From positions 1 to 22,004 of IMG/VR virus record IMGVR_UViG_3300045964_000062: a stretch of 22,004 nt of DNA. One strand, 5' to 3'. Both the position numbers and the translations under genes were made by a program. Every line of letters starts with the position of its first letter. Positions within the stretch are counted from its first letter, which is position 1. Source of the DNA: a virus. This document shows, piece by piece, positions 1-370 of the stretch. The notes under the pieces are model-generated. The model was given only the letters and a program-made list of their open reading frames with translations, was not told the origin of the DNA and searched no databases.

Positions 1-96
1 CCGTCGCCGTAGCCGGCGCCGTCGCCGTCGCCGTCGCCGTCGCCGTAGCCGGAGCCGGAGCCGGAGCCGGAGCCGGAGCCGTAGCCGTAGCCGTCG
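1..96. repeat. Hexanucleotide tandem array (CCGNNG units)
   Basis: Sixteen consecutive 6-bp units cover 1-96: CCGTCG, CCGTAG, CCGGAG and one CCGGCG. On the minus strand each unit encodes X-Gly, and the variation changes only X (Asp, Tyr, Ser, Ala). Identical units are clustered: four CCGTCG in a row at 19-42 and five CCGGAG in a row at 49-78. This pattern suggests unit duplication by slippage. The array continues beyond the left edge of the window. Confidence 0.9.
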
Positions 97-119
97 AGAG
101 TCACCAGATGCACTTGCAT
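1..119 (-). CDS. Gly-X dipeptide-repeat protein, N-terminal part (runs off window)
   Basis: The reading frame opens with an ATG at 119-117 and runs off the left edge with no stop. The N-terminus is MQVHLVTLDG, after which every second residue is Gly and the alternate residue is Tyr, Ser, Asp or Ala (YG, SG, DG, AG). It is encoded by 6-bp units. The start lies inside the 3' end of the upstream gene, which stops at 103-101, as expected for translationally coupled phage genes. I see no good Shine-Dalgarno sequence. Gly-Tyr/Gly-Asp/Gly-Ser proteins of this kind occur in phage genomes from memory, but I know of no assigned function. A low-complexity structural, adhesive or RNA-binding role is speculation. 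The choice of start is supported by the continuous frame and the non-repetitive leader of about eight residues before the repeat. Confidence 0.65.
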   Translation of the reverse strand, partial: MQVHLVTLDGYGYGSGSGSGSGSGYGDGDGDGDGAGYGD

Positions 120-370
120 GCGATGATGCTGATGACGGCCCGCATCGGTGCCACGAGTCGGCCCACGGGGTCCAATTTCGTTTTGCCGGTGGGTCCGTTC
201 GCCGCCAACTCCCCCAGTCCTCGGGTTGTGCCCCAATAACGGATGCACTGAGCGTCCTCGATTACGAGCTTGTCACCGACTTCACGCGACTTGCCGACGT
301 AGACCCAGCCGCGATCAAGCACGACAATCTGCTGCGGACCGAGGTCGATTTGTTCTCCTGCTTCTTTCAT
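101..370 (-). CDS. Small phage protein, 89 aa, with conserved RYWGTTRGLGEL core
   Basis: Start ATG at 370-368 is preceded by AAGGTG at good spacing (AAGGTGACTCATG), a clear ribosome binding site. The protein has a beta-rich look, with a conserved-looking core around residues 44-54 (RYWGTTRGLGEL) followed by a GPTGKTKLDPV turn and a hydrophobic C-terminus (RAVISIIAC). I recall small phage proteins with the same WGTT-GLGEL-GPT pattern, possibly related to the DUF6948-type family, but I cannot confirm this. No catalytic motif or transmembrane segment is visible. Its 3' end overlaps the start of the Gly-X repeat gene by 19 bp, so the two are probably made from one transcript in a coupled way. Function unknown. 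Confidence 0.8.
   Translation of the reverse strand: MKEAGEQIDLGPQQIVVLDRGWVYVGKSREVGDKLVIEDAQCIRYWGTTRGLGELAANGPTGKTKLDPVGRLVAPMRAVISIIACKCIW

Follow-up and report, generated by a model that had tools for sequence, protein, structure and literature searches.

At one end of a viral contig, the gene of an 89-aa protein is overlapped by a second gene which encodes a repeated dipeptide made of glycine and one variable residue X. This raises the question of whether the two genes belong together, how the repeat changes and what the pair could do. The window, that is the whole stretch of DNA analysed (22,004 bases), is the entire IMG/VR record IMGVR_UViG_3300045964_000062, and its contig end falls inside the repeat array. 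The features at this end are the following.

1..119, minus strand: gene of the Gly-X protein, 5' part only, ATG at 119..117, truncated by the contig end
1..92, minus strand: hexanucleotide array GGCNNC, 15 complete units and 2 bases of the next, X being Tyr, Ser, Asp or Ala
101..370, minus strand: 89-aa DUF6948-type protein, predicted Sm/LSm-like barrel (Pfam 3.5e-4, profile link, AF2 and fold searches)
101..119, minus strand: the two reading frames overlap by 19 bp, which may couple their translation

On the minus strand, 3..92 reads as 15 complete 6-bp units (GGC followed by TAC, TCC, GAC or GCC), and 1..2 are the first two bases of a sixteenth; TRF calls the array with a period of 6. The initial annotation had counted sixteen units, a number which includes the cut one because the contig ends within the array. 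It had correctly described the X codon as the only one that varies, as is the case across the units of the window array, and the overlap as 19 bp long, which agrees with the ATG at 119 and the end of the stop codon of the 89-aa gene. Identical units tend to be neighbours in the window array (8 adjacent identical pairs versus 3.5 expected, p = 0.007).

We found a complete copy of the Gly-X gene in a second contig of the same phage, IMGVR_UViG_3300049731_000156 (37,715 b; contig G001, locus L002). The gene is an open frame of 60 codons: the product begins with M-Q-V-H-L-V-T-L-D, continues with 25 Gly-X units and ends with a Gly in front of the TAG stop codon. Over 22,004 aligned bases, the window and G001 differ by one mismatch, inside the array: at window position 17, the window's sole Ala unit (GCC) is a Ser unit (TCC) in G001. 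This may be an assembly error, since it lies 17 bases from the contig end. Among the matches listed, three loci of named phages being excluded, a contig end lies within 600 b downstream of DUF6948 in 22/92 loci of subfamily A and 20/80 of subfamily B (these subfamilies are described below), and within 600 b upstream in only 3/92 and 5/80. Arrays seem to break assemblies, and therefore repeat counts from contigs which end in arrays are minimum values. This calls for caution: metagenome-derived repeat numbers at such arrays are unreliable. We also considered a function of the array at the RNA level, and found no support for it: none of 200 dinucleotide shuffles folds as poorly as the RNA of the L002 array (z +5.1).

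The 89-aa protein of the window matches DUF6948 (PF22253) alone in Pfam, with an E of 3.5e-4 and 21.1 bits, under the 27-bit gathering cut-off. Judged by sequence, it is a divergent DUF6948. Its subfamily, A, is recognised by 'DRG[FW]VYVG ... RxWGTxxGLGEL ... GPxxxT'; the Pfam-core subfamily, B, reads 'IVRTYSAGVFAG ... ARRLWYW' and scores 5.2e-32 with Pfam DUF6948 (core members up to 5.1e-34), and a third form, 'VVVTTEHRGVFFG', is likewise DUF6948 by score (2.1e-23). We compared a profile A2, made mainly of subfamily A with 9 core-type or C-type rows, to a profile A5 of the core type, and obtained a probability of 99.5% (E 9.9e-23, 85 columns); some rows are in both, hence this link and the weak Pfam matches of members are not fully independent. 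The window protein is thus of the same family as the core members by profile, and these have the same downstream array, but it stays below the cut-off of the Pfam model. When viral contigs were scanned, relatives of subfamily A proved to be encoded in 466 stretches and those of subfamily B in at least 545, and for each scan the 80 best-scoring loci were kept (best 80 of 466 and best 80 of at least 545; not dereplicated). DUF6948 was found in 0/398 genomes of the phylum of G006 and in 0/14 controls. This absence from cellular genomes says little, because nothing matched anywhere and the Pfam model misses 5/6 genomes with known subfamily A. The possibility that DUF6948 is a cellular gene was set aside as no genome matched, though the search is insensitive to subfamily A. 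The window protein has no match in plasmids, and PHROGs and NCBIfam gave no functional assignment.

Do the two genes belong together? An array follows DUF6948 in 92/92 subfamily A loci with room (95 examined, among the matches listed) and in 79/80 subfamily B loci (best 80 of at least 545). Here an array is at least three Gly-X in a row (at least six in 89/92 loci of A and 75/80 of B), and room is a stretch of 60 b or more beyond the DUF6948 stop codon, or an array seen. Three of the 95 subfamily A loci lack room (L012, L026, L032); the weak cases among the 92 are L043 (degenerate), L098 (Ns inside the array) and L037 (contig cut), and in subfamily B four loci (L263, L270, L310, L315) have merely three to five Gly-X in a row. 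L284, the 80th B locus, in which no array was called, has 72 b left, and its printed sequence is also Gly-X. Conversely, starting from the DNA pattern of the array, DUF6948 is present within 1.2 kb upstream and on the same strand in 58/63 loci with room among the matches listed. These 63 come from 80 loci, five of which were removed since the pattern lay in other proteins (L102, L107, L141, L161, L171) and 12 of the remaining 75 having less than 400 b upstream; the five loci with room and without DUF6948 in this interval are L103, L105, L147, L148 and L178. The pair does travel together, as the initial annotation had proposed, and the loss of the pairing in most relatives, which would have spoken against its proposal, was not observed.

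The same arrangement is seen in phages with names. Subfamily B matched 15 named phage records; we fetched seven, and Gly-X comes after DUF6948 in 7/7. Four are isolates of Pectobacterium, Iodobacter, Vibrio and Chlorobiaceae phages, and the arrays of the other three (L234, L235, L240) are short or degenerate. The pair is also present in Rhodobacter phage RcapNL, in ctOK67 and in Barba18A. The Gly-X protein which adjoins DUF6948 in phage ctOK67 bears the label 'lamprin', in our judgement a low-complexity label transfer. In locus L124, DUF6948 and the array are fused in a single ORF of 219 aa (Pfam DUF6948 1.1e-22), the one fusion found. Many bacterial viruses appear to carry DUF6948 and Gly-X as a two-gene unit.

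Some loci depart from the simple order. Several consecutive Gly-X genes or arrays per contig are found in L105, L137, L108, L103 and L178. A 202-aa ORF, which to our eyes resembles a homing endonuclease, stands between DUF6948 and the array in L131, and in Iodobacter phage PhiPLPE (L237) a gene annotated as an HNH endonuclease is found some 270 b past the DUF6948 gene, beyond the array. In L098, a contig of an Eremiobacterota MAG, the array directly after DUF6948 contains ambiguous bases (X in the translation).

The start of the Gly-X gene has a recurrent position in the end of the upstream gene. Counted back from the end of the upstream stop codon, an ATG stands at 13 b in 63/75 subfamily B arrays and at 13, 16 or 19 b in 42/89 subfamily A arrays. 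If any ATG, GTG or TTG before that end is accepted, the counts rise to 80/89 (A) and 71/75 (B); such a count is permissive, and therefore the ATG offsets were used instead. Because of these offsets, it is plausible that the two genes are translated by coupling; the co-translation which the initial annotation had stated outright is to be kept at that strength.

The arrays have a median length of 33 units in subfamily A and 40 units in subfamily B, contig-cut arrays included, and Tyr, Asp and Ser make up 91% and 89% of the X residues, respectively. The composition of all arrays together is 49% Gly, 18% Tyr, 14% Ser and 13% Asp, with 0.2% for Lys and Arg. The commonest Gly codon of an array has a median share of 100% (A) or 97% (B); across arrays, GGC, GGG and GGT are all used for Gly, and TCC, TCT and AGC for Ser. 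Since the codon choice differs between arrays while X stays Tyr, Asp or Ser, the sequences point to selection acting on the array protein. Deviations from the Gly codon are synonymous in 45 cases versus 51 non-Gly for subfamily A and in 74 versus 76 for subfamily B, once arrays with less than 80% Gly in phase had been excluded (89 reduced to 86, and 75 to 72). The synonymous excess is mild relative to the 1:2 ratio expected without selection. The Gly-X tail is predicted to be disordered, residues 152-198 in the array of L124 having a pLDDT under 50 in AF2.

Gly-X proteins can bear additional domains. Six of them (L142, L146, L165, L180, L235, L240) have in common a C-terminal domain of about 150 aa after the array ('YIDG ... 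HGETL ... LTGSC'; grouped by eye), and Pfam, PHROG and NCBIfam have no match to its copy in L165. Another domain at the C-terminus ('GPL.LC...LHAT..P..W..ERWW'; also grouped by eye) is seen in L006, L121, L140 and L251; the copy in L140 is without family match. At the N-terminal side, a 'GAC..GV' domain is found in L160, L115, L144 and L151, and in L148 a DUF7666 is fused to the array (3.3e-26).

How do the arrays change? The best material is provided by Rheinheimera phages, of which 115 records, RefSeq duplicates included, match the Barba locus; the Barba18A allele is matched at 100% identity by 43 rows, and the 10-8B allele, one unit longer, by 29. The 15 Barba records which we fetched contain ten alleles; they were picked across identity classes, and the allele frequencies are not representative. 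Thirteen of them, of the Barba18A/5S type, contain eight alleles of 29 or 30 units: four alleles reach 30 units by an added one whose place differs each time, and others swap an X codon. The neighbouring genes, compared over 803 bp, are identical to those of Barba18A in 12/13 records, and Barba10S has one difference. Barba19A and 31A have 34 versus 36 units, in an order unlike that of the 18A/5S type. GGC is the only Gly codon in the eight 18A/5S-type records with printed units. The genes of the fetched alleles are 210, 216, 240 and 252 b long: with a unit of 6 bp these lengths are in frame, and on/off switching by frameshift was not seen among them. Within this phage population, the number of units thus changes one by one between stable flanks. 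The copy-number change by slippage advanced in the initial annotation is borne out by the four alleles which each gain one 6-bp unit beside nearly invariant flanks, and the invariant repeat number which would have contradicted it was not observed, the fetched records ranging from 29 to 36 units.

Larger changes are found in metagenomic pairs: L009/L010, L046/L052 and L307/L309 have 96-100% identical DUF6948 DNA and arrays of very different length and order, which means that any function of the tail must tolerate large change. In other metagenomic pairs the arrays are identical. Over 159 arrays of at least 12 units (not dereplicated), we counted 1,680 adjacent identical pairs versus 1,723 expected, and 15/159 arrays have p <= 0.05. 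The clustering of identical units, which the initial annotation had noticed, is therefore a property of the window array and not of the family, and we rejected it as a general proof of slippage. Repeated blocks of units (up to 12 units) exceed shuffles with p <= 0.05 in 49/151 arrays, again not dereplicated. Slippage-type change and block duplication are well supported because of the Barba alleles on constant flanks and of the repeated blocks. A diversity-generating retroelement, which the NNC codons had suggested, seems unlikely: X is mainly Tyr, Asp, Ser or Asn, and whole units are gained.

We then come to the shape of the DUF6948 protein. The AF2 model of the window protein, built on a 94-sequence alignment, has a pLDDT of 93.3 and a pTM of 0.82, with strands at 14-18, 23-31, 34-45, 65-75 and 79-84 and a helix at 52-58 between the third and the fourth. 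When Foldseek was run with this model against the PDB, the rows were mostly Sm/LSm entries with a best E of 2.6e-3; neither this model nor that of L124 gave a PDB match below E 0.001, which counts against the Sm reading. In VIA, the best match of the window model is 6ppq_A (LSm1), with Z 8.9 and 2.4 A over 66 residues, and the top 50 rows, down to Z 7.3, are all snRNP/spliceosome, LSm, archaeal Sm or Sm-like when classed by entry title (the chains of large complexes being classed likewise). The L124 model, which comes from a largely different alignment with mainly subfamily B rows, matches 6ppn_F (Z 8.4, 2.0 A over 64) and 1i8f_C (Z 8.1, 1.8 A over 64). A Z near 8 can be due to a common arrangement of strands. 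In a comparison with viral structure models, a protein of a Barba phage came first, and the DUF6948 label is borne by four of the top nine rows; further down, other phages contribute an 'RNA binding protein' (E 0.014) as well as an 'Sm-like domain-containing protein' (E 0.043). DUF6948 is predicted, on these models, to be an Sm/LSm-like five-strand barrel in shape.

Sequence comparison gives much fainter signals. A search of PDB sequences with the 94-member profile returned no Sm chain, and only a uL30 chain at E 0.16. With hhalign, three archaeal Sm sequences were matched at probabilities of 5.9% and 2.7%, over 25 columns each, the scores being above those of 60/60 and 59/60 column shuffles. 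Among the 94 and 60 members searched against Pfam, 17 weak listings are other than DUF6948, and four of them are of Sm type, each in one member and below threshold (Hfq 0.015, LSM 0.16, SM-ATX 0.0084, LSM 0.17); CrAss_Ring_3_4, a phage tail ring family, is weakly matched by 5/60 members (best 0.015), which is more members than for any Sm family. Sm proteins contact RNA through the Asn of Sm1 and the Arg-Gly of Sm2. These residues are not conserved here: no Asn is found at the positions conserved at 80% or more, only P75 reaches 80% in 71-84, and the conserved R20-G21 is located in the beta1-beta2 turn, the residues having been assigned through the predicted strands and not by a residue-level superposition. 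The most conserved positions of subfamily A (R20, G21, G26, R44, W46, G47, T48, G51, G53, G59, P60, T64, D67) are mostly in the beta1-beta2 turn and in the long beta3-beta4 region, and presumably differ from the sites with which Sm proteins hold RNA.

The surroundings of the pair give a hint of when it could act. Downstream of the pair in G001 come genes for a VRR nuclease, a PIF1 helicase, a protein matched by D5_N and DUF5906, a terminase and a portal protein; in Barba18A, DNA polymerase and exonuclease genes lie within about 2.5 kb of it. By this gene order, the pair looks like part of an early or replication region. The surface module imagined in the initial annotation finds no support in G001, where the pair precedes the nuclease, the helicase and the D5-like protein and not tail genes, and a surface or tail-fibre role of Gly-X was dropped since the gene context does not support it. 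In the window we also found the following features.

1844..2773: weakly ParB-like protein (PHROG 6.2e-4)
2770..3006: excisionase-like HTH_17 protein (regulator)
3280..4704: integrase (PHROG 1.2e-28)

The window phage is probably temperate.

What could such a pair do? Our preferred though tentative answer, which we hold to be possible and which may well be wrong, is an Sm-like core split from its tail, a hypervariable chain of low complexity which would act like the Gly-rich tail of Acinetobacter Hfq. The DUF6948 and Gly-X genes would form one phage module. The former would produce a small five-strand barrel of Sm/LSm type, and the latter, probably translated through coupling to it, a disordered chain rich in Tyr, Asp and Ser and nearly free of Lys and Arg. 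This chain would serve as the tail of the barrel in trans, comparable to the C-terminal tail of Acinetobacter Hfq and to the Tyr-rich tails of RNP proteins; if the two proteins are physical partners, it could tune the binding of nucleic acid by the core, presumably ring-forming, or cluster the cores, in early infection. As 6-bp units are gained, lost or duplicated, the length of the tail and the order of X would then change rapidly, with the frame kept. The fact that the pair consists of separate genes in all but one locus examined counts against a split core.

Other explanations have to be weighed against the split core. DUF6948 may be a small beta barrel of a generic kind, SH3-like, ring-protein-like or other, which would bind protein or DNA in replication, its likeness to Sm being a common arrangement. 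The Z around 8, a significant sequence link to Sm that was not found, the missing Sm motif and the weak CrAss_Ring_3_4 matches in 5/60 members agree with this; on the other hand, two models retrieve mostly Sm/LSm entries and not SH3 or other barrels, and 4/17 weak Pfam listings are Sm-type, so that we regard a generic barrel as doubtful, with a real chance nevertheless of being the right description. If the barrel were instead a mere carrier, Gly-X could be an anti-defence decoy, an acidic, aromatic and lysine-free chain which would mimic nucleic acid or clog a host defence protein, and its variation would be driven by an arms race. Such a decoy is suggested by the acidic arrays nearly without Lys or Arg, by the allelic change within one phage population and by the early-region location beside nuclease and helicase genes. 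However, the gene context examined showed no defence or anti-defence gene linked to the pair, and the recurrence of one barrel family beside Gly-X in widely differing phages would better fit a shared partner than many host targets; we consider the decoy unlikely.

It is also conceivable that the array has no function of its own, and is a selfish or neutral microsatellite expanded by slippage at the end of the DUF6948 operon. One would then expect what is seen in part: variability by single units, repeated blocks beyond shuffles (49/151 arrays) and synonymous deviations about as numerous as non-Gly ones (45 versus 51; 74 versus 76), a mild departure from a 2:1 non-Gly excess. Yet the array adjoins DUF6948 in 92/92 and 79/80 loci, X is nearly always Tyr, Asp, Ser or Asn despite differing Gly and Ser codons, the fetched Barba alleles differ in length by multiples of 6, and there exist one fusion and several added C-terminal domains; we find a functionless array improbable.

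Returning to the split Sm-like core, two known kinds of tail can be compared to Gly-X. Chains rich in Tyr and Gly can drive condensates, and in the prion-like domains of FUS and hnRNPA1 the Tyr residues are spaced by Gly or Ser. By analogy, Gly-X has its Tyr spaced in the same way and is predicted to be disordered; unlike these domains, it has a strict two-residue period, is rich in Asp and contains nearly no Arg. The Gly-X chain could drive condensates of DUF6948, or alter its binding as the tail of Hfq does. According to a paper on Acinetobacter baumannii Hfq (PMC11617691), this protein has an Sm core and a disordered tail of GGFGGQ repeats ending in an acidic tip: the RNA affinity increases when both the repeats and the tip are removed and decreases when the tip is kept with either no repeats or four, and the Hfq locus is identical in the eight clinical strains sequenced. 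The resemblance would lie in an Sm core joined to a Gly/aromatic repeat tail with an acidic tip, the number of repeats affecting the RNA affinity. The differences are that Hfq is one polypeptide and the phage module two genes (except in L124), that the Hfq locus is constant in eight strains whereas the phage array varies between sister isolates, and that the repeat unit is GGFGGQ instead of Gly-X. Compared with the Sm/LSm/Hfq superfamily as a whole, the predicted five-strand barrel of DUF6948 aligns with Sm/LSm chains, but is without significant sequence similarity to them and without conserved Sm1/Sm2 RNA-contact residues. One may go further and imagine that tailed phages encode a two-part RNP system, in which an Sm-like ring and a separate hypermutable Tyr-Gly tail would gather phage (or host) RNA or replication machinery into condensates, the length and the Tyr/Asp pattern being tuned by 6-bp slippage; we would place only a small bet on this.

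As to earlier descriptions, the available parts of the Barba phage papers make no mention of repeat, glycine, gp017, hypervariable, indel or polymorphism (PMC6715854), nor of glycine or hypothetical (PMC9305737), and the passages covered of a study of low-complexity regions in prokaryotes and phages (PMC6821194) do not describe the DUF6948/Gly-X pair. In literature that leaves most subscription papers and bioRxiv preprints uncovered, the term DUF6948 was not found, and the titles and abstract starts concerning phage dipeptide or hexanucleotide repeats, or GYGYGDG, contain no description of the pair.

Finally, the DUF6948 family, whose relatives are encoded by 466 and at least 545 viral stretches in the two scans, would acquire a partner, a mechanism of mutation and a predicted fold. 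Should the Sm-like interpretation be true, phages use a split version of the core-plus-tail design of Hfq, and the natural alleles which are one Gly-X unit apart, with nearly identical flanks, would allow a direct test of the length of the tail and of its Tyr/Asp pattern.
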